Positions 6,207 through 27,119 of a stretch of DNA of 35,665 bases are shown in pieces; the first letter of the stretch is position 1, and each line of letters begins with the position of its first letter. Made by a program: the position numbers and the translations under genes. Source of the stretch: Fluviicola sp. (lineage in GTDB: Bacteria; Bacteroidota; Bacteroidia; Flavobacteriales_D; Crocinitomicaceae); contig NVXV01000003.1 of NCBI GenBank assembly GCA_002734085.1, positions 136,972-172,636 of the forward strand, in the 5' to 3' direction. The notes below the pieces were generated by a model. That model worked only from the letters and a program-made list of their open reading frames with translations. It was not told the DNA's origin and did no database searches.

Positions 6207-8279
6207 TTATTTAAACTGTTTTATAGCTCCAGATTTAATTCTCTGGAAATAATCTACCATATCTCTTCTTACCTCTCCAGACATTATCACCAGACCTAAA
6301 ACATTCGGGAAGGCCATACCCAGAATCATTAAATCCGAGAAGTCTATTACAGCACCAAGTCCAACTGAAGACCCAATAACTACAAATATCAAGAATATCA
6401 CTTTGTAAGTGTAGGCTGCTGGTTTTGTTTCTCCAAAAACATAAGTCCACGCTTTAAGTCCGTAATAAGACCATGAAATCATTGTTGAGAATGCAAATAA
6501 TACTACTGCAAAAGATAAAACGTACAATGACCAATCACCAAGTGATGAAGAGAATGCCGCTGATGTTAATGCAGCTCCTTCCAAACCTTCTGGATCGGCT
6601 GCATATCCTGTAAAAATAATTACTAAAGCTGTCATAGTACAAACAACCACAGTGTCAATAAAAGGCTCTAAAAGAGCAACAACTCCTTCACTAATTGGCT
6701 CCTTCGTTCTAGCAGCGGAGTGAGCAATAGCCGCCGAACCAACACCTGCCTCATTGGAAAATGCTGCTCTTTGGAATCCTAAAATTAGTACTCCTATGAA
6801 ACCACCATAAATAGCGTCTGGACTAAAGGCTCCGTAGAATATTGTTGAAAAACCATTACCTAAATTATCATAATTAAAAGCGATAATTGTAATTGCAGAG
6901 ATCACATATATTGCAACCATTGAAGGTACAATTTTATCAGTTACTCGAGCTATGCTTTTAATACCACCGATAATAACAATACCAACTAGTGCTGCCATTA
7001 CTAATCCAAAATAAAATCCATAAGACTCAAATCCATCCCAACCTGGAATTCCTGCTAACTGATTAAATGCTTGATTTGCCTGGAACATATTTCCACCACC
7101 TAAAGATCCACCAACACATAAAATAGCAAATAAGATAGCTAATACTTTTCCTAATTGCTTGAATCCAGGACCTCTTTTAGCTAAACCTCTACTCAAATAG
7201 TACATAGGTCCTCCAAATACTTCTCCATCTTCTTTCTGGTGACGATATTTTACACCCAATGTACATTCAACAAATTTTGAAGCCATTCCAATAAACCCTG
7301 CAAGTATCATCCAAAAAGTTGCTCCTGGTCCACCCATACTGATTGCGATAGCTACACCAGCGATATTTCCTAGACCTACTGTAGCAGAAAGTGCGGTAAC
7401 TAATGCTTGGAAATGCGAAACCTCACCAGAATCATCAGATGGATCATCATATTTACCTCTAACCAAAGCGATAGCATGTCTTGCCCCTTTCAGTTGTATA
7501 AAGCCCATTCTGAAAGTAAAGAAAATTGCCCCTAACACCAGCCATACAACTATCAATGGTATTCCCTGAACCTTGTTAGATAAGTTTTTGTAATAAAAGG
7601 GTTGTGGATCTGTATATTCAATTCGTCCTAGGTTTTTTTCTGAACGATTTCCTCTTTTATTGGTGTAGTAAACTTTATCACCAGGACTCACTTTTTCTCC
7701 TTTATGTTCACCATGGTGTAAAGTTCCTGCACCCATAGCAAAATATGGAAACTCAACATCACCATCTTTTAAATAAGCGATAATTTCTTGGTGTTCAACT
7801 TTAGATCCGTCTTCTTTTACCCATCTTGAAAGGGTATAGTCTTTCTTTTCTTTTTCAAGTGCAAATGGAGCTTTTAAAATGTACTCCCCGACTTTAACTG
7901 TATCCGACCAAATGTTTGCAAAAAGAATATTTTGCATAAAAGCTACTGCAGGCTTCATTGTATTATTGAAAGTCTCGGGAATACTATTCGCCTCGACTAT
8001 TCCCTTGAGTTTTACGGTATCATTAGCAGCATCTACCACAGAAACTTTTATAGAGTCCCCTTCAGATAATTTTTTAGCTACTCGAGTATAAATAGATATC
8101 TCCTTAACGTTCCAAATATATCGGTAGGGAGGCTTACCTCCAGTTGGGATTACTTCAGCTGTAACGTCATTAATTGCAGGAAGATCGTCACTTATACTTA
8201 ACTCTGCTTTGAGTGGCTCATTCTGACTAAATAATATTGAAGATAAAATCAATGAAAACGTTAGCAATAAAAATCTCAT
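6207..8279 (-). CDS. AGCS-family sodium:amino-acid symporter with large extracytoplasmic N-terminal extension
   Basis: Sodium/alanine-type symporter. The region from about residue 239 to 690 is a complete AGCS transporter: TM1 ([16 protein letters not shown]), [27 protein letters not shown] and [16 protein letters not shown] are family hallmarks. Typical members are 440-550 residues; this one is 690 because of an added N-terminus. Residues 1-18 form a signal peptide (ending ILFSQ). Residues 24-92 look like an Ig-fold SprB/PKD-type repeat ([13 protein letters not shown] ... [11 protein letters not shown]). Residues 127-208 resemble a lipoyl/biotinyl barrel-sandwich domain ([29 protein letters not shown]) but lack the normal Asp-Lys attachment dyad. 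The extension would face the periplasm. First gene of the probable operon with the HhH gene, apt and the dehydrogenase. Substrate is inferred only from the family. Confidence 0.93.
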
Positions 8280-11006: not shown

Positions 11007-14000
11007 CTATTCCTTATCACGGCTTTTAATTCCTTTTAACGCAATCAAAGTTATATCGTCTGTTTGTGGTTGTTCCCCAATCCAAGCTTCTAGGTGTTCT
11101 CTAAATATCTCATTTTGTTCTTGAAGATCCTGACGAGTTAAGGCATCTAATAAAGCAAGGAACTTTTTAATCGTAAGTTTCTTATTCTTCTCCCCACCAA
11201 ACTGATCTGGATAACCGTCAGAAAACAAATAAAGTATTTGATTTTGATTCAAGTTGATTTCCTTTGTCTGGTACTTGAAGTCATCCGTTTCAGGCATATC
11301 ACCAATATGTTTCGCGTCTGTTTTGTACACCGTGATGTCTTCGTTTTCGTCGTCTGTCACTACAAATCTACCACCAGCACAGGCATATTGTACGCTTTCA
11401 TCTTCATGATTAAAAACGCATACAACAGCTTCCATACCATCTTTAATTCTATTCTGACCGTCTCTTGGTAAAACGTCGATAAGTCGCTTGTCTAATTCAT
11501 CAAATATTTGTCCAGGATCTGTAACTTTAGCTTCTAAAATTATCTGATTCAATATATTAATCCCTAGCAACGTCATAAACGAACCAGGTACTCCATGTCC
11601 AGTACAATCAGAGCAAACGATTATAGTCTTGTTATCAACTTCATTTAACCAGTAAAAGTCACCACTAACAATATCCTTAGGTTTAAACAAAATAAAGTGT
11701 TCAATAAATGTTTTTTCAAAGTCATTTGACCTTGGAAGCATATTAAATTGAATTCTTCGCGCATAATTAATAGAAGAAGTGATGTCCTTATTTTGTTCCT
11801 TTATTATTGCATTTGCCTCTCTTCTTTCTGTAATGTCTCTTGCCAAACCTAAAAATCCGATAACAATATTGTCAGCACCAGGCTTTAAAAGAGTAGTTAA
11901 GTTTTGACCCAACCATCTTTCCTGCCCCTCAGGTGTTGTTATTGGAAACTCCAAGTAATCGTGTTTCCTTCTCTCTTTGAAGTTCTGCGCGTAGAACGTT
12001 CGAACCTTAGATTGATATTCTCCTATTATTACAGAAGTAATTGATTTGCCAATCAAATCATTTTTACTTCTTCCAAAGACTTCTTCACACTTCTCATTAA
12101 CAAACGTAAAGTTTCCTTGTGGATCGGTTTGAAAAATCAAGTCATCCGCATTCCGAACGATTAATTCATAATAATTTTCTAGATTTATTTTATCCGTAAC
12201 GTCCTGTCCTAATATTACTCTAACGTCATCTGAAAACTCTTTACAGGACCATTGATAATAAACGATGTCTCCTGTCTTTGAAAAAAGTGGAGTAACGAAT
12301 ATTTTTCCTTCTTGAAATTCATTTTTCAGATCTACATTTGAGAATTTCTTATGCTGACTATTCCGAGGTTGATATTGATTTAATTCACTAACAGAAGTTC
12401 CTTTTAACTCCACTTTAAGGTCTAATAACTCTTCAATGTTTTCACTGGCATACGATATTTTTCCGTCACCATCAAAAGCCACAACTAATACATTTCCCTT
12501 ATTTACAACCCCCGAAGTAAAAATCAATCTCTCAAGAGAGTTGTTTCTCAAGTATGTCATAAAAACAGAAAGGAACGCAGCAACACATATAGCTATTAAA
12601 AACAAATACTGGTTGTATAAAGCTTCCTCTAAATAAAAAGTCATTGCTACGCCTGACAAAATGAATATAAATCCAAATGCAATGGCCGATTTAAGTCCTC
12701 TGAAAATAAAAGGTGCAACAAAAGCAATTAATAATATCGCCATTAAATAAAACGGATGGATATTGGATAAAAATGCACAAACAAAGTTGAACCCAAGTAA
12801 TATAAAAAATCCTATTATTAAAAGTTCGTTTGATCTCTGAACGAATCGTTTTGAAAGGCTCACTATAAGAAAAAGACCAAAAACTAAAACTCCTACAAGA
12901 ATAGATGAAATATCATGAAGTTGAATCGTTTCATCCATCCGAGGGGCAAAAATATGTGCTGCTGTATTTGCAAAAGCTCCAAACAACAAAATACTACCCG
13001 CGACCCTTCTATTTGCTCCTACATCCCTAGATAAAATAATGTTTTTTCTACTAAATTTCTTAGTCTTTTCAAGAACAAAAAAGTTAGCGATAATAACTAA
13101 ACCTATAATTAAAATAATGAACCATTTTGTTCTAAAAAAAGGAAAGTAGACTCTAAAGCTAAATGTTGAGGTTTCACTAATAACTTGTTCATCTATAGTC
13201 GCACGTACTTTAAACGTATAGTCCCCACCTGATAAATTATTATAAAACGCTTCCTGAGACGTGGTCCAATCAGACCATTCATTGTCGAACCCTTCTAATT
13301 TATAGCTGTACCTTACAAAATCATTTTTAGCATTTATGCATTTAAATTGAAATGAAAGATTGTTGTTATCGACATGAAAAACAGGAACTCCCCCAGGCTC
13401 TAGCTCTTGGTAAAAAGACCTGAAATCTTTATTCTGAACCTTCCGAATACTTGGAGCGATCGGTTTAATTTTTTTCTGAAGAAATTCAGGCTTAATCATA
13501 AACAAACCTTCTAGGGTTCCAACAAAAATATTCCCGTTTTCATCTTTATAAGAAGATCTCATATGGGTTTCATACCCATTAAAACCATTTTCATTGTTAT
13601 AGGTATTACTTGATTCTGGGACTCCTTCTTCATCCACTTTAATAACAGTTATCCCCTTGTTCGTACCAACAATGAGATTTCCGTAATTATCCGTATTCAG
13701 TGTGTATAACAGTGTAGAAGGTAAAAATCTCTGAGCTGTAATAGCAGTGATTGTTCCGTCTTTTTTATAACAATACAATCCTTCATCTAAAGTAAACCAG
13801 CAGTTACCATAAATATCTTTTGCTGAATTTCCAACATAAGAACCAATGCTAAGTCCATTTACTTTTCCAGGCAAGTGAGTTAATGTTGTATCCCCTAAAC
13901 TATAAAGAAATACTCCGTTATTAGACCCAAAAAGAATTGAGCTCGAATCATCTGGTATTATTGCATTATAGAAATATGCTGGAGCCTTATCAAATAGTCG

Positions 14001-15344
14001 TTTTTCATTATTTTTTAAATTGTGTTGAGTTAACCCCTTCCCTTCTTCGGAAATCCATACAGAACCAAATGCATTAAATATCAATGATACTCTCTTGCCA
14101 TCATACGCCTTAAAGGCATTACTACTTATTAAATTGCCATTTTGTATTTCTTTAATTCCTTTTGTTGTTGCAAATAAATATCGATCCTCAAATTGGGTCA
14201 TTGCATTTACTACGACATCACCATATTCTCTAAAGTCTGAAGATTTACTTCCAACATAAGTATTACCTTCACTGTTAGTTAGAATAATTTCATAGTTGGC
14301 TGTTCTACCTATAAAACGGATGTAGTGATCTTCATATAAGGAATGAAAGTTTAATTTAGTAAATGGTTCAAGTGAAATTCTAAAAATACCAACGCTTCTC
14401 GTAGTCACCCAAATATCTCTATTTCTATCTATAAAAACATCCGTAGGGCTTTTGATTTGTTTAATCGAATTGTTTGTTAAAACGACAAAATCATTATTGC
14501 TTATATCCTTAGTAATAACTTTTCCAAAATTTGTGACATATACATTGAAATCATATCTATGGTTGGACTTGACAACAAACTCTCCCTCCTCTAAAAGTGT
14601 CTTTTCAATATTAGTTCTAATGAAAAACTTTGGTCTAAAGTCATCCATTAAAACGGTCATTTCCTGAGTCAGGTCTCTGTTGCTAAGCACTAAAGAATCG
14701 CCTGTTTTATACACACTAGTGAAGTTTTTTGTTGTATTCTCATCTGTGCCTAACCATTCATTTAAATGAATGATTTGTTTGTCATAAACTAGAAAATTCC
14801 CTTTAGAAGTAAACAGGAATACAGCATTATCAACAATACTGCTACCATAAAAATGCATGCTTTTATCATAAGGGTAAAGCTTTTGTTCTCTTAATATCTC
14901 ATGGTTATCACTATATATTGCAATTCCGCCGTCTTGAACAACAACTAAATCATTGTAGAAATGTATTATTTTTTGATTTTGTCCCTTATACTGAATGGAG
15001 TCAATACGTTCAATTTGATTATATCTCAGTTTAAAAATCCCTCTATACTGAGTGGAAAAAATAACATTTCCTTGGTCATCAAAATCAATTGAATTTATGT
15101 GTCGATTTGTTCTTCCTTGAATCTCTTCAAGGTAGTCCATTTTTTTACCATCAAACCGCATAAGACCGGCTCCATCGGTACCAAACCACAAGTAGCCATC
15201 GCTCGATTCATTTACTGAAAGTAGAGAAGAAAGAATTAAGCCATCCGTATGATCATAATTCTTAAACGTATATAGTTGTGCATTACTAACTGTAGCAATT
15301 AACAGAAATAATACACAAATAAAGATACGTACTACAAATTTCAT
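11007..15344 (-). CDS. Multidomain receptor: two-component-regulator propeller, Y_Y_Y, multi-TM, PAS, SpoIIE/PP2C phosphatase
   Basis: Very large signalling protein (1445 residues from the chosen start). Order: signal peptide (1-23, ending VSNAQ); periplasmic two-component-regulator propeller repeats (about 25-620; units such as DGYLWFGTDGAGL, NRDIWVTTRSVGI, NGNIFVGTLEGLF); Y_Y_Y domain (about 655-735; YSYKLEGFDNEWSDW); one TM (about 740-762); a six-helix membrane block (about 785-935); two PAS-like domains (about 945-1050 and 1058-1175, the second with NFTFVNEKCEEVFGRS); and a SpoIIE/PP2C Ser/Thr phosphatase (about 1195-1440). Metal-binding Asp residues are visible: D1229 (SGDFYW), D1246 (SDCTGHG), D1302 (DGMEA), D1376 (FSDGYPDQ) and the final TDDITL. 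No histidine kinase or DNA-binding domain. The ATG at 15344 is chosen because it begins a clear signal peptide; an ATG at 15452 would overlap purK and place 36 unlikely residues first. Phosphoprotein target unknown. Confidence 0.9.
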   Translation of the reverse strand: MKFVVRIFICVLFLLIATVSNAQLYTFKNYDHTDGLILSSLLSVNESSDGYLWFGTDGAGLMRFDGKKMDYLEEIQGRTNRHINSIDFDDQGNVIFSTQYRGIFKLRYNQIERIDSIQYKGQNQKIIHFYNDLVVVQDGGIAIYSDNHEILREQKLYPYDKSMHFYGSSIVDNAVFLFTSKGNFLVYDKQIIHLNEWLGTDENTTKNFTSVYKTGDSLVLSNRDLTQEMTVLMDDFRPKFFIRTNIEKTLLEEGEFVVKSNHRYDFNVYVTNFGKVITKDISNNDFVVLTNNSIKQIKSPTDVFIDRNRDIWVTTRSVGIFRISLEPFTKLNFHSLYEDHYIRFIGRTANYEIILTNSEGNTYVGSKSSDFREYGDVVVNAMTQFEDRYLFATTKGIKEIQNGNLISSNAFKAYDGKRVSLIFNAFGSVWISEEGKGLTQHNLKNNEKRLFDKAPAYFYNAIIPDDSSSILFGSNNGVFLYSLGDTTLTHLPGKVNGLSIGSYVGNSAKDIYGNCWFTLDEGLYCYKKDGTITAITAQRFLPSTLLYTLNTDNYGNLIVGTNKGITVIKVDEEGVPESSNTYNNENGFNGYETHMRSSYKDENGNIFVGTLEGLFMIKPEFLQKKIKPIAPSIRKVQNKDFRSFYQELEPGGVPVFHVDNNNLSFQFKCINAKNDFVRYSYKLEGFDNEWSDWTTSQEAFYNNLSGGDYTFKVRATIDEQVISETSTFSFRVYFPFFRTKWFIILIIGLVIIANFFVLEKTKKFSRKNIILSRDVGANRRVAGSILLFGAFANTAAHIFAPRMDETIQLHDISSILVGVLVFGLFLIVSLSKRFVQRSNELLIIGFFILLGFNFVCAFLSNIHPFYLMAILLIAFVAPFIFRGLKSAIAFGFIFILSGVAMTFYLEEALYNQYLFLIAICVAAFLSVFMTYLRNNSLERLIFTSGVVNKGNVLVVAFDGDGKISYASENIEELLDLKVELKGTSVSELNQYQPRNSQHKKFSNVDLKNEFQEGKIFVTPLFSKTGDIVYYQWSCKEFSDDVRVILGQDVTDKINLENYYELIVRNADDLIFQTDPQGNFTFVNEKCEEVFGRSKNDLIGKSITSVIIGEYQSKVRTFYAQNFKERRKHDYLEFPITTPEGQERWLGQNLTTLLKPGADNIVIGFLGLARDITERREANAIIKEQNKDITSSINYARRIQFNMLPRSNDFEKTFIEHFILFKPKDIVSGDFYWLNEVDNKTIIVCSDCTGHGVPGSFMTLLGINILNQIILEAKVTDPGQIFDELDKRLIDVLPRDGQNRIKDGMEAVVCVFNHEDESVQYACAGGRFVVTDDENEDITVYKTDAKHIGDMPETDDFKYQTKEINLNQNQILYLFSDGYPDQFGGEKNKKLTIKKFLALLDALTRQDLQEQNEIFREHLEAWIGEQPQTDDITLIALKGIKSRDKE

Positions 15345-15438
15345 AGGAGCTCTTAAATTAGAATCAATAAAACTACGAAAAATAACCAACAAATACTTGC
15401 AAAAATCTAGGATATAGCAGACTGACGAACTTAAAACA

Positions 15439-16590
15439 TTATTTTTTAGCAATTATTTTTATTGCCTTTTGAACCATTCTAGCGTTTTCTTTTGCTTTTT
15501 CAATAGATTCATTGAGGATCGTAGCGTGTCCCATCTTTCTATGAGGCTTTGTCTCTGCTTTTCCATATAGATGAACATATACACCTTTGTGCTGAATTAC
15601 TTTATCCAAACCATCATAAATAGCCGAACCAAAAAAATTCTTTTCCCCCAATAAATTAACCATCACACCTGGTGTTTTAAGCGATGTATCACCTAATGAT
15701 TGATTGGTAATTGCTCTTAAATGTTGTTCAAATTGAGAAGTATAGTTACATTCAATCGTATGGTGTCCACTATTGTGTGTTCTTGGAGCTACTTCATTTA
15801 CAAGTAAATCTCCATCTTTTGTCAAAAAAAGCTCTACTGCTAAGAGTCCTACCATATCTAATTTTTCAATCACATCTTTGGCGATTTTTTGCGCGCTTTG
15901 TTCGATTTCAGAAGAAACACTGGCTGGAGAAAATAGGAACTCTACTAAATTCAAAGTTGGACTAAACTCGCATTCGACTAGAGGAAAAGACTTCACTTCT
16001 CCTTTTTCGTTTCTAGCAACAATAACAGATAGTTCTTTATCAAAATCTACCAACTCTTCTAATAAAGATGGGGCTTCAAATCCATTCACGATGTCTCTTT
16101 CATCGTTGATTTTATAAACTCCTTTACCATCATAACCGCCTTTTCTCAATTTTTGCATTGCCGGGAGGAAGTCTATCGCACTCTCGAGTTCTTTTTTGTT
16201 TGAAATTAATTTATATGGAGCAGTTGGAATATTATTTTCTTTATAGAACTCCTTTTGTAATCCTTTATCTTGAATTAATCTTAAAACACGTGGTTGAGGG
16301 AAAACTTTTACTCCTGAGTTTTCAAGCTCCTCTAGTGCATCCACATTTACATGTTCGATTTCAACAGTCAAAACATCTTTGTCCTTTCCAAAATCGAGAA
16401 CATCACCAAAGTCATTAATATCTCCTATTGTAAACTCATGAGCCAATTTCCCGCATGGTGCAGATAACGCACTGTCCATAGCATAAATATGAATATCATA
16501 ATTCATAGCTGATTGAATCAACATTCTTCCTAGCTGCCCTCCTCCTAAGACGCCAAGTTTAAAACTATTTCCGTACCACAGATTTTTCAT
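15439..16590 (-). CDS. purK: 5-(carboxyamino)imidazole ribonucleotide synthase
   Basis: ATP-grasp enzyme of de novo purine synthesis that converts AIR, bicarbonate and ATP to N5-CAIR. The 383 residues match the family. Motifs: N-terminal FKLGVLGGGQLGRMLIQ, ATP-grasp loop KGGYDGKGVYKI, ELSVIVARN, and the C-terminal NEVAPRTHNSGHHTIE. The ATG at 16590 fits the usual short extension before the GGGQLG motif. A well-formed promoter (16595-16622) lies so close that the mRNA may have almost no leader. It is divergent from the hpt-adk-obg operon and is followed, 94 bases on, by the propeller-phosphatase gene. Confidence 0.96.
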   Translation of the reverse strand: MKNLWYGNSFKLGVLGGGQLGRMLIQSAMNYDIHIYAMDSALSAPCGKLAHEFTIGDINDFGDVLDFGKDKDVLTVEIEHVNVDALEELENSGVKVFPQPRVLRLIQDKGLQKEFYKENNIPTAPYKLISNKKELESAIDFLPAMQKLRKGGYDGKGVYKINDERDIVNGFEAPSLLEELVDFDKELSVIVARNEKGEVKSFPLVECEFSPTLNLVEFLFSPASVSSEIEQSAQKIAKDVIEKLDMVGLLAVELFLTKDGDLLVNEVAPRTHNSGHHTIECNYTSQFEQHLRAITNQSLGDTSLKTPGVMVNLLGEKNFFGSAIYDGLDKVIQHKGVYVHLYGKAETKPHRKMGHATILNESIEKAKENARMVQKAIKIIAKK

Positions 16591-23141: not shown

Positions 23142-26100
23142 TTATCTAATTATACTAATTGGTCCAGTAATCTCTGTTCCTTGATCATCATTTAATATTA
23201 TTCTATAGAAGTAAGAACCCATTGGCAATGGCTCTCCTTCATTCATCCTTGTTCCATTCCAAGGCTCCTCATATCCCGTTGATTCAAAAACGAGTCCTCC
23301 CCATCTATTCACAATCTTAACTTCATTGTCAGGATATAAAATATTTAAGTTTTCAATTACAAGAAGGTCATTTACTCCATCTCCATTAGGAGTGATTACA
23401 GTAGGAATAATAGGGTCGTATTCTCCACAAAGGCCAATAGTTACAGTAATTGTATCTAGCGTTGTTCCGCAAATTGGGTGATTTTGTCCAAATACAATTG
23501 TATTATCCCCACCACCCAGGTTATAAACTAAAGTCGAACTATTTGATGCCGTTTCGAAATCTGCAGCACCATTTATTACGTACCATATACTATTTACTCC
23601 CTGAGGTGAATCCGTTCCATTTAAGACTATACTGTTACCAGCACAAACTGATGTATCGCCCGTAAATATCTCAGTCTCTAATTTATTAAATATGCTTAAA
23701 GTATCTGAGGTAACTGGACAGTTCCCATTTGAAATTGTCCATGATAAGTCATTCCATCCACTAGAGAAATTATATGCTAAAGTATTTGGTGAGTTCTCAT
23801 CCAAAAACGAGACACTTCCACTTGCATCACCCCAAGTTCCAATTCCAACACTTGGTTGATTGGCCGATATGTTCAAAGACGTATCTGAACATAAAAACAA
23901 AGTATCTTGTGTACTTGCAGGTAACGGCTCTTGGAAAACAGTTACTACTACAGTATCAGTTGTACTTCCACAGTCAGCAGAAGAGATTTCCCATACAAAA
24001 ACATTACTTCCATACGTCATATTATTGACCCCAGTAATGTTTGCAAATTCGTTATTAAAGTTTCCACTACCTGATGCTAAAATCCACTCACCTGTACCAG
24101 AAGTTGCTGGATCTGCTTCGATCACAATACTCGTTGTATCACAAAGTTGAGTATCCTCAGTTAGAACGTTCGCTTGACTTGGAGATTGTAGAACTTCTAC
24201 GTTAAAGGTACATGAAGCTGTATTTCCAGAAGGATCCGTTACTTCGTATGTTTGAATTGTTATTCCAACAGGGAACTGATCTCCAGAGGACAATCCAGAA
24301 CCATCAATCTGAGAAACAAAAATTCCAGCGCAATTATCATTGGCAATTGGTGCTGCGTAGGTAACAATTGGATCACATGTTGAAATATTAGCTGGACAAT
24401 TAATTGTAGGGTCAATAGATTCTGTCACCGCTAATTCAAATGAACACGTGTCCGCATTACCAGATCCATCAGTTGCTATAATTTCTACATTATGAGTCCC
24501 TGTTCCAATCTCTGTTCCAACCGCTGGATTTTGTGTAAGAACCACACCTGGACAGTTATCCGTTGCGCTTGCCATACCAGTGTAATCAGTAATTTGATAA
24601 TTACAATCAGTTCCATTATTCACAGACTGGTTCGCTGGACAAGTTACTGTTGGAGGGGTTATATCGTTTGGAATCGTATTAATGAAACAACTTGTGCTAT
24701 TTCCATTTTCATCAGTCAAAATTACTTCTATTACATCCGCTCCACTTAAGTTAGTTCCAGAAGCTGGATTCTGTGTCACAGTCATATCAGCAAATGCAGA
24801 ACAGTTATCACTACCAGTAACTACTCCGGTTAAATCAGGAGCTAAATAATCACAACTTGCATTTACGTTAACTATCGAATCAGAAGGACACATAATTGTT
24901 GGATCCTCTTGATCATCAATTGTTACTTCTAAATCACAAGTACTGAAGTTCCCTGAAAGATCAGTTACTGTCAACGTTACCGTTGTTGGTCCGCTTATCG
25001 AAGAGCCTACAGCTGGCGACTGAGTAACAGCTAAGTCCGCGGAAACATCACAGTTGTCATTAGCTGTAACTAATCCTGTGTAATCCGTTAAAACTGCGTT
25101 ACAAGATGCATCAGAAGGCTCTACTTGATCTGGGGCACAGTTTGTAATAGTTGGAGCCATATTGTCTTCTACTGTCAATTCAAATGTACATGTACCTACG
25201 TTACCACTTGGGTCTTCAACAGACATTTCAATTTGATGCACCCCTGCATTTAATACTGTACCAACTGCAATATCTTGTGTAATTGTAAAATCTCCAACAG
25301 AAAAACAGTTATCAGTACCAGTTGTGGCACCCGAATAATCTGGTACAGAGAATTCACAGTTTACATCACTACTTTCAGTTGTATTAGAAGGACAAAAAGC
25401 TTGAGGATTTGTTGTGTCCGTTAGCGTAACGTCGAAGTCGCAAGAACTAGTATTACCCGAATCATCTTCAGCCGTTAAAGTAACTGTTTGAACTGTTCCT
25501 TCTCCTGAAACCAGAGTACCAGGGGCAGGTACTTGAGTAATTTGAATTCCACCGAGAGCGGGACAGTTATCTCCAGCTGTAGCATCACCTGTATAATCTG
25601 GCAAACTTGCATTACAAGCTGAGTTTGTCGGTAAGGTCTGATCTGCAGGACATGTAATTGTTGGATCTTCCATGTCTATCACCGTTACCTCAATATTACA
25701 AGATTTTGAATTACCAGATGAATCAATTGCAGTGAGCGTTACTGTTGTAGCTCCTGAAATAGTAGACATCGGACTCGGTGATTGTTGGAAAGTCATATCA
25801 AGTGCACTTGAAGTACAGTTATCGTTCCATATCACCTGATCTGTATAATCACGGATAAGCGTATCACATGTTCCAACTTCTGTTTCTTGCGTTTGGTTGG
25901 AAGGGCATGTAATATTCGGAGAAATAGTATCAACTAACTCTACCGTAAAAGAACATGTGGATGTATTACCTGCCAGATCAGTTGCAGAAATTTCAACAAC
26001 TTGATCAGAAGACATTGGGGTTCCAGAAGCAACATTCTGTCCTATGACTAGATCACCAAAAACTGTACAGTTATCACTAACAGTCGCTAAACTTAAATAA

Positions 26101-27119
26101 TCATCCACTGTAGATTCACAAGACGCATTCGCATAAGCTGGTTGATTAGCAGGGCATGTAAGATCTGGAGATATAGTATCGACCGACCTAACATCTAGCA
26201 GGCAACTGTTAACATTTCCAGATTCATCTTCAGCAAATATTTCAACTTCTACTACTGTCAAGTGACCAGAGATAACTGTTCCTGCTGGAATATCCTGATT
26301 CACTAAAATATTAGCTATCGAAGTACAATTATCATTTACTGCAACAAATGGAGGTAACTCTAAATCTGGAACTGCTGCGTCACAGTTTTGGTCTACATAT
26401 ACATTTACGTCTGTAACGCAATTCATTGTTGGTGCCTCTGTATCATTTGAAGAGAGTTGAATATTATATATTGCAGCAGACGGATCTGTTCCTGTATTAT
26501 CATTATTATTTACCCACTGAAAGCCAATTTGAACATTTGGGTTATTATTAGCAGAGCCTGGCAAAGTCAAGGTATAAGCTGTCCACAACCCCTGCGGAGC
26601 ACAAGTTGTTGCCGTCTTCGGTGTATCATCAATCTTATTCCATACGGAGCCATCAAAATACCATACAGAAAGGTCATCATTTGCACCATCACCATTCTCC
26701 ATATACTCAAAAGTAAGTTCAATTCCACACTCCCCTGTACAGTCAATTACAGGTGATTCTGCTCGCTTACTTGTAGTTGCATCAAAGCCAAAACCGCCAT
26801 CACCATTTAAATATGCCGCTCCAGCATCGATTGCTCCAGCACTAATGTGTAGCGTTGGATTATTACCACATCCAGCACCACAATTTCCTACACCTTCGCC
26901 ATTTTCTTCCGCACTTATATACCAAACATTAGCATCAGCACCATTGGTTCCAGTACTTGAAACTGACCACGCCCCATTAGGAGAAGCAAACCCATTAGCT
27001 AACGTACCTGTATTACAACCAGCGCCAAATGTCTCTGTCCAAAACACTTGAGCGTTATTTTGACTATAAACAAGAATGCTGATAAAAACGAGTAGGCCTT
27101 TTAAAAAGGATAATTTCAT
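23142..27119 (-). CDS. HYR-repeat surface protein with type B T9SS (gliding-motility) C-terminal domain
   Basis: Secreted surface protein of 1325 residues. Signal peptide 1-23 (ending NNAQ); an N-terminal Cys-rich jelly-roll-like domain (24-224; WTETFGAGCN, LTFEYMENGDG); nine HYR (hyalin-repeat) Ig-like modules (225-977), each with a Cys-Pro start, a second Cys, a DNC motif and a fourth Cys in SGNxxxC; three PKD/Ig-like modules (978-1235); and the type B sorting domain (about 1236-1325; TPNGDGVNDLL, IVNRWGGLVFES, PMGSYFYRI). HYR proteins of Bacteroidota are adhesin-like and anchored on the surface through T9SS. The PorP/SprF partner follows 11 bases downstream. Ligand unknown. The frame is intact with no sign of frameshift. 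Confidence 0.93.
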   Translation of the reverse strand: MKLSFLKGLLVFISILVYSQNNAQVFWTETFGAGCNTGTLANGFASPNGAWSVSSTGTNGADANVWYISAEENGEGVGNCGAGCGNNPTLHISAGAIDAGAAYLNGDGGFGFDATTSKRAESPVIDCTGECGIELTFEYMENGDGANDDLSVWYFDGSVWNKIDDTPKTATTCAPQGLWTAYTLTLPGSANNNPNVQIGFQWVNNNDNTGTDPSAAIYNIQLSSNDTEAPTMNCVTDVNVYVDQNCDAAVPDLELPPFVAVNDNCTSIANILVNQDIPAGTVISGHLTVVEVEIFAEDESGNVNSCLLDVRSVDTISPDLTCPANQPAYANASCESTVDDYLSLATVSDNCTVFGDLVIGQNVASGTPMSSDQVVEISATDLAGNTSTCSFTVELVDTISPNITCPSNQTQETEVGTCDTLIRDYTDQVIWNDNCTSSALDMTFQQSPSPMSTISGATTVTLTAIDSSGNSKSCNIEVTVIDMEDPTITCPADQTLPTNSACNASLPDYTGDATAGDNCPALGGIQITQVPAPGTLVSGEGTVQTVTLTAEDDSGNTSSCDFDVTLTDTTNPQAFCPSNTTESSDVNCEFSVPDYSGATTGTDNCFSVGDFTITQDIAVGTVLNAGVHQIEMSVEDPSGNVGTCTFELTVEDNMAPTITNCAPDQVEPSDASCNAVLTDYTGLVTANDNCDVSADLAVTQSPAVGSSISGPTTVTLTVTDLSGNFSTCDLEVTIDDQEDPTIMCPSDSIVNVNASCDYLAPDLTGVVTGSDNCSAFADMTVTQNPASGTNLSGADVIEVILTDENGNSTSCFINTIPNDITPPTVTCPANQSVNNGTDCNYQITDYTGMASATDNCPGVVLTQNPAVGTEIGTGTHNVEIIATDGSGNADTCSFELAVTESIDPTINCPANISTCDPIVTYAAPIANDNCAGIFVSQIDGSGLSSGDQFPVGITIQTYEVTDPSGNTASCTFNVEVLQSPSQANVLTEDTQLCDTTSIVIEADPATSGTGEWILASGSGNFNNEFANITGVNNMTYGSNVFVWEISSADCGSTTDTVVVTVFQEPLPASTQDTLFLCSDTSLNISANQPSVGIGTWGDASGSVSFLDENSPNTLAYNFSSGWNDLSWTISNGNCPVTSDTLSIFNKLETEIFTGDTSVCAGNSIVLNGTDSPQGVNSIWYVINGAADFETASNSSTLVYNLGGGDNTIVFGQNHPICGTTLDTITVTIGLCGEYDPIIPTVITPNGDGVNDLLVIENLNILYPDNEVKIVNRWGGLVFESTGYEEPWNGTRMNEGEPLPMGSYFYRIILNDDQGTEITGPISIIR
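24189..26447 (-). repeat. Nine tandem HYR-module repeats (about 84 codons each) inside the adhesin gene
   Basis: 753 codons encode nine successive modules with the pattern D-x4-P-x2-x-C-P ... C ... DNC ... SGN-x3-C. The modules keep the Cys and DNC positions but are otherwise diverged at both protein and DNA level, so they are old duplications rather than fresh copies. The ninth module is shorter and has CDPIVTYAAP in place of the usual second segment. The first also differs (PPFVAVNDNC). Confidence 0.85.

Follow-up and report, generated by a model that had tools for sequence, protein, structure and literature searches.

An AGCS symporter of Fluviicola sp. with a predicted periplasmic extension built from an Ig-like domain and a lipoyl-like insertion

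The DNA examined here (hereafter the window, meaning the whole 35,665-nucleotide stretch of a Fluviicola sp. contig) carries a gene for an AGCS-family symporter in which about 220 further residues lie between the signal peptide and TM1. These residues comprise an Ig-like domain of the SprB type and a lipoyl/biotinyl-like domain. Sequence comparisons indicate that the carrier itself has a conserved pre-TM1 helix, that the Ig-like domain precedes this helix and that the lipoyl-like domain is inserted between it and TM1.

Gene architecture and the insertion site

The gene lies on the minus strand, and its parts map to the window as follows.

6207..8279, minus strand: whole gene for the AGCS symporter with its putative periplasmic extension (690 aa)
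8223..8279, minus strand: signal-peptide-like start, residues ~1-19 (by eye, with a model helix at 2-17)
7989..8216, minus strand: SprB-repeat/Ig-like domain, residues ~22-97, six strands (PF13573 matches in the family; model strands 24-94)
7917..7982, minus strand: the carrier's pre-TM1 helix, residues ~100-121 (alignments and model)
7566..7916, minus strand: inserted stretch from the pre-TM1 helix to TM1, residues ~122-238 (comparison with insert-free members, and model)
7665..7841, minus strand: lipoyl/biotinyl-like core, residues 147-205, with the turn K171-D-G-D174 lacking an attachment lysine (profiles, Foldseek)
6210..7556, minus strand: transporter from TM1 (residue 242) to the C-terminus, predicted LeuT-type fold (PF01235, TIGR00835, 6cse)

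An earlier sequence-only reading of this gene had given its open reading frame, several motifs with their residue numbers and the K-D-G-D turn, all of which are as described. It had placed the extension at 7640-8279. The extension is real, but this span takes in no more than residues 1-213. The inserted domain, with its strands, continues to residue ~238-241, so the full extension occupies window positions 7557-8279. In the full-length model (pLDDT 84.4, pTM 0.81), six strands (24-94), one helix (100-119) and ten strands (122-241) are predicted before TM1, and a count of residues 20-240 finds no cysteine. Because basic residues (R257, K264, R267, R274 and K276) come after TM1, the positive-inside rule places the N-terminal side of the carrier most probably in the periplasm. 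Together with the signal-peptide-like start, this agrees with the extracytoplasmic location proposed earlier for the extension.

The carrier is an AGCS symporter. Both PF01235 (residues 280-685, E 4.1e-128, 428.4 bits against a cut-off of 24) and TIGR00835 (residues 243-677, E 3.2e-125, 418.3 bits against a cut-off of 272.65) match above their curated cut-offs. The predicted full-length model aligns in Foldseek with AgcS (6cse; E 1.1e-24, TM-score 0.91 on the target, 38% identity), which supports a predicted LeuT-type fold for an intact-looking core. This is the sole AGCS gene matched in its own genome. The AGCS family (TC 2.A.25) is described as symporting alanine or glycine with Na+ or H+ (PMC10862720), and by analogy with the family the window carrier would perform Na+/H+-coupled alanine/glycine transport.

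Members that carry neither extra domain (L026-L030 and others) retain the signal-peptide-like start, the helix and TM1, and every one of the 28 sequences in alignment A1 has P110 and F120. Residues 100-121 therefore belong to the carrier itself. Across the 57 members aligned more broadly, the invariants of this helix are E102, N105, P110, V112 and F120. A simple N-terminal fusion was also considered and is ruled out, given that the helix separates the two domains. Classic AGCS proteins (32 stretches, inspected by eye) run through ~15 residues straight into TM1 with no signal peptide, whereas the window protein begins with a signal-peptide-like segment and carries both extra domains; read by eye, these ~15 residues would correspond to the pre-TM1 helix.

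The junction of helix and TM1 is occupied in several other ways. Members with the Ig-like domain only (L024, L175, L184, L188 and L198) carry a short loop with an NG(D/T) motif in place of the lipoyl-like insert. A different segment of 105-117 aa, here called X1, fills the site in six rows (L178, L189, L191, L240, L241 and L242), and another of 79-87 aa, X2, does so in five (L231, L232, L246, L235 and L031), two of which have a longer N-terminal part; L025 has a short segment there. Pfam returned nothing better than E 0.1 for the eight of these 12 rows that were scanned, seven of them X1 or X2 rows, and hhalign of X1 against X2 gave 5.3% (E 0.0074). The number of kinds among these other inserts is unsure, because there are 12 sequences, the X2 rows are scattered on the tree and the comparison of X1 with X2 stands at 5.3%. 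Elsewhere in the protein, L022 has ~84 additional residues from the Ig-like domain to the pre-TM1 helix, and in G013, G048 and G055 the AGCS matches break at query residues ~410-418 within one open frame, which suggests a second insertion site or a longer loop in the core.

Identity of the two extra domains

A lipoyl/biotinyl-type domain had been proposed from the sequence, and family profiles, PDB profile matches and the predicted fold all bear this out. Biotin_lipoyl (PF00364) matches 39 of the 57 aligned members at E <= 0.01 (best 2.2e-7). The window protein on its own gives no match to PF00364, and reaches E 0.05 with an E2 model. A profile of the insert aligned by hhalign with 25 E2 lipoyl stretches at 98.6% (E 9.8e-16, 57 columns), but these stretches had been selected by attachment motif within loci that the similarity search with the extension had brought up, and the comparison is therefore not independent; the unbiased support consists of the family Pfam and PDB profile matches. 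Six control comparisons, in which the X1, X2 and Ig segments were each paired with E2 and with the insert, gave 0.2-1.5%; among the further controls, Ig against X2 gave 0.1% and X1 against X2 the 5.3% mentioned above.

Searched against the PDB at E <= 0.1, the extension profile matched 25 distinct sequences, 20 of them lipoyl or biotin carriers (best 4e-5); the other five include phage decoration and Ig-like proteins. The model of the extension alone (pLDDT 91.3, pTM 0.82) gave 784 Foldseek matches at E <= 10 and just one at E <= 0.001. The top rows are biotin carboxylases with two domains aligned at an rmsd of over 13, and clean single-domain matches were obtained with the lipoyl domain 1ghj (E 6.3e-3, TM 0.76 on the target, rmsd 2.3) and the biotin carboxyl carrier protein 5gua (E 7.8e-3, TM 0.72 on the target, rmsd 4.5). 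The inserted domain is thus predicted to have a barrel-sandwich fold.

The attachment dyad was rightly read as missing from the window protein, whose aligned turn has Asp at the position of E2's Lys. The dyad is also not conserved across the family: five of the 57 members have Asp-Lys at the aligned place, and 11 have it somewhere in the turn. Those five members are what speaks for a functional lipoyl or biotinyl carrier domain. We consider such a function extremely improbable, since the other 52, the window protein included, have no Asp-Lys at this point and since the domain would be exported, away from the known lipoyl and biotinyl ligases, which act in the cytoplasm. For the window protein specifically, an active lipoyl domain is rejected on account of the absent attachment lysine, and its lipoyl-like domain is probably unmodified and non-catalytic.

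The sequence-only reading had also suggested that the extension might bridge to an outer-membrane or cell-wall partner, much as membrane-fusion proteins do. Matches to Biotin_lipoyl_2 in eight of 57 members and to HlyD_3 in one, profiles that we take to include membrane-fusion proteins, are consistent with this idea. Against it stand the 39 members matched by Biotin_lipoyl and the PDB matches to E2 and biotin carriers. In addition, residues 122 to 241 are modelled without any helix, and hence without an alpha-hairpin in the insert. Pfam identified no outer-membrane factor among the 23 neighbour clusters that occur in 8 or more of the 81 loci, though one cluster (17 loci) is an FtsX-type permease; each cluster was scanned through one representative or the window's own gene, and one had no match. 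The proposed kinship with membrane-fusion proteins is not supported by these observations, and the Pfam matches, the helix-free model and the PDB matches lead us to reject such an ancestry for the insert. A bridging role is accordingly very unlikely.

The Ig-like assignment rests on the family in a similar manner. PF13573 (SprB) matches 47 of the 57 aligned members at E <= 0.01 (best 2.8e-11), and the window protein alone matches at E 0.0066 (16.5 bits against a cut-off of 28) to 0.019. Foldseek pairs the Ig part of the extension model weakly (0.33) with intimin 2zqk, and the phage decoration and Ig-like proteins among the PDB profile matches also bear on this domain. The SprB-like, Ig-like domain of the earlier reading is therefore upheld by family-level profiles and the predicted fold, with a weak match for the window protein alone. 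It is present as one copy on a membrane carrier, with no repeat array.

The positions that are invariant in all 57 members bear on whether the extension might capture substrate or gate the carrier, by binding amino acids or small peptides or by closing the periplasmic entrance. The extension would sit next to TM1 on the periplasmic side, and nutrient uptake across the outer membrane makes a periplasmic hand-over plausible. However, the sole invariants of residues 122-205 are W153 and G185, neither of which is polar, and relatives exist that do not have the lipoyl-like domain. Capture or gating is therefore unlikely in our view, although the polar invariants of the Ig-like part, E73 and D83, leave room for capture by that domain.

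Distribution, history and selection

A family of AGCS proteins with the same extension, for which the sequence-only reading had proposed a search, does exist; it is mostly from Bacteroidota and has a conserved neighbourhood. The relatives considered are the best 80 of 259 stretches, and by the NCBI ranks of their titles 79 are Bacteroidota (73 of the 80 loci being Flavobacteriales) and one is Pseudomonadota, a metagenome bin titled Algicola. The nearest two (86% identity) come from uncultured Flavobacteriales, followed by Brumimicrobium (Crocinitomicaceae, Flavobacteriales). Alignments A3 and A4 take in 56 of these 80 loci. A4 consists of the window and those 56, hand-chosen and sampled by similarity to the extension (n=57), and in it the extension aligns end to end with 15 extension residues invariant. 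Locus L083 was left out of the alignments though it has two AGCS genes; L047 and L078 are represented by the second of their tandem copies.

A match is present in 42 of 59 near genomes, the window's own genome among them, and is nearly full-length in 20; one genome of the same genus has a second copy with the full arrangement. Among 395 genomes of the phylum (own included), full-length matches to the extension profile occur in at least eight, in frames of 691-715 aa, with scoring confined to no more than 7 candidates per genome. Partial matches occur in other frames, at profile positions 129-185, where some frames carry the E2 motif, and at ~17-77, where frames reach 4911 aa. The window extension alone, used as a query against the genome contigs, found no relative. 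AGCS itself is matched in 217 of the 395 phylum genomes and in 198 of 299 genomes of the order, with open frames of ~430 to 790 aa among the matches listed. In one genome of the same genus, a second copy of AGCS (L251:449-2547) is broken into two frames that overlap. That extension and carrier had separated naturally in this copy was considered and set aside, a frameshift or sequencing error being likelier because the break falls inside TM1 at a run of T.

In 81 loci, the AGCS gene is accompanied by an HHH gene (77 loci), an acyl-CoA dehydrogenase (76), DUF2851 (74) and an XerC-like integrase (69), and all four are present in 65. This conserved neighbourhood suggests vertical inheritance. Several other features of these loci were observed. 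A potassium-channel-type gene (Ion_trans_2, TrkA_N, TrkA_C) lies ~1.6 kb upstream of AGCS in 38 of the 81 loci (e.g. L066:4842-5849), which belong to other lineages, and is absent from that place in the window. Two AGCS genes share one ~12.7 kb locus in L047, L068, L073, L078 and L083. The window also encodes a 1481-aa protein (11007-15452) that combines regulator propeller, Y_Y_Y, PAS and SpoIIE domains, and a 1325-aa protein (23142-27119) in which HYR repeats accompany a CHU_C type IX secretion domain.

A quick tree of the carrier core was made from 99 rows, dereplicated at 88% identity from 159 (loci L201-L230 contributing four to the row set), and 29 of its 96 inner branches are open. Of these rows, 57 have the Ig-like and lipoyl-like domains, five the Ig-like domain only, 20 neither, 12 another insert and five are classic, the classes being assigned by eye with Ig plus lipoyl as the default for the rest, in a sample enriched for the extension. 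Rows with X1 and X2-type inserts lie apart from the lipoyl-bearing rows, within starred groups of 12 and 16 rows, respectively. X1 needs two changes and X2 three changes for three rows, and each may thus be more than one event or kind. The lipoyl-bearing rows need five changes, at least two of them forced by starred branches. One-clade tests, on groups named after the tree had been seen, reject a single clade of rows with both domains (p 0.029), and give p 0.44 when the Ig-only rows are added and p 0.25 for X1. The lipoyl-like insert could have been gained once and then lost in places, or gained several times; both histories fit.

Mean pairwise identity is 0.73 for the core, 0.42 for the Ig part, 0.50 for the helix and 0.39 for the insert, and dN in the Ig part and the insert, calculated for seven pairs, is ~2 to 6 times the core dN. 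Each of these pairs shows less nonsynonymous than synonymous change, the latter being saturated for many pairs. The extension is under purifying selection.

These patterns bring in a further explanation, namely that the loop between helix and TM1 tolerates insertions and that the domains placed there are merely structural or have no specific function. Different segments, or none, at the same site are in keeping with such a permissive loop, as is the faster evolution of the extension. The position of the Ig-only rows, near or among rows with both domains, is what occasional loss of the lipoyl-like part would produce. Purifying selection and the 15 extension residues invariant in 57 members argue otherwise, but these members were sampled by similarity to the extension. 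We regard mere decoration as a real, if somewhat doubtful, possibility.

Possible role and relation to known systems

The most likely role of the extension, which we put forward tentatively, is that of a periplasmic, non-catalytic docking or positioning cap. The AGCS cation symporter core would carry out transport, and the two periplasmic modules would take no part in its chemistry. Instead, they would serve as a cap for docking or positioning the carrier relative to another periplasmic or cell-wall component, or to a second copy of itself. We favour a docking cap because the extension appears unmodified, changes faster than the core, is absent or replaced in relatives and would lie on the periplasmic side. 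Such a cap would also explain why different segments fill the same site. However, no partner was found, the commonest neighbours (the HHH gene, acyl-CoA dehydrogenase, DUF2851 and the XerC-like integrase) are not envelope partners, and domains placed between helix and TM1 could equally gate or feed the carrier.

A broader proposal is that the helix-TM1 junction of Bacteroidota AGCS proteins is an insertion hot spot, where at least three unrelated periplasmic domains (lipoyl-type, X1 and X2) were placed independently because a periplasmic module there serves these symporters in a common way, for example in gating, in receiving substrate taken up across the outer membrane or in envelope docking. 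We offer this as a possible but rather speculative view.

The window protein would be a case of a metabolic carrier-type domain turned into a structural element on the periplasmic side of a LeuT-type symporter and retained by many Flavobacteriales, in a position that relatives fill in different ways. If the modules are functional, Bacteroidota inner-membrane amino-acid carriers may be linked to the envelope or controlled from the periplasmic side. Natural comparisons are readily available in relatives with no insert, with the Ig-like domain only and with both domains. The literature searched (titles and the starts of abstracts) contained no description of this architecture; most subscription papers were outside its reach, and hence the arrangement is not shown to be undescribed.

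Among known systems, AgcS of Methanococcus maripaludis (6cse) is the same carrier, with profile positions 244-680 matching AgcS 17-448. E2 lipoyl domains and biotin carboxyl carrier proteins (PF00364) resemble the inserted domain in profile and predicted fold, but the window domain sits in a transporter, presumably in the periplasm, and the attachment lysine is absent from it and not conserved among its relatives. SprB repeats (PF13573), to which the Ig-like domain is allied by family matches, are known from long surface adhesins, whereas the window protein has a single copy on an inner-membrane carrier. Membrane-fusion adaptors of the HlyD type also carry a periplasmic lipoyl-type domain. In those adaptors, however, the domain is split by an alpha-helical hairpin, whereas the insert of the window protein is predicted to have no hairpin and is nearer in sequence to E2 and biotin carriers.
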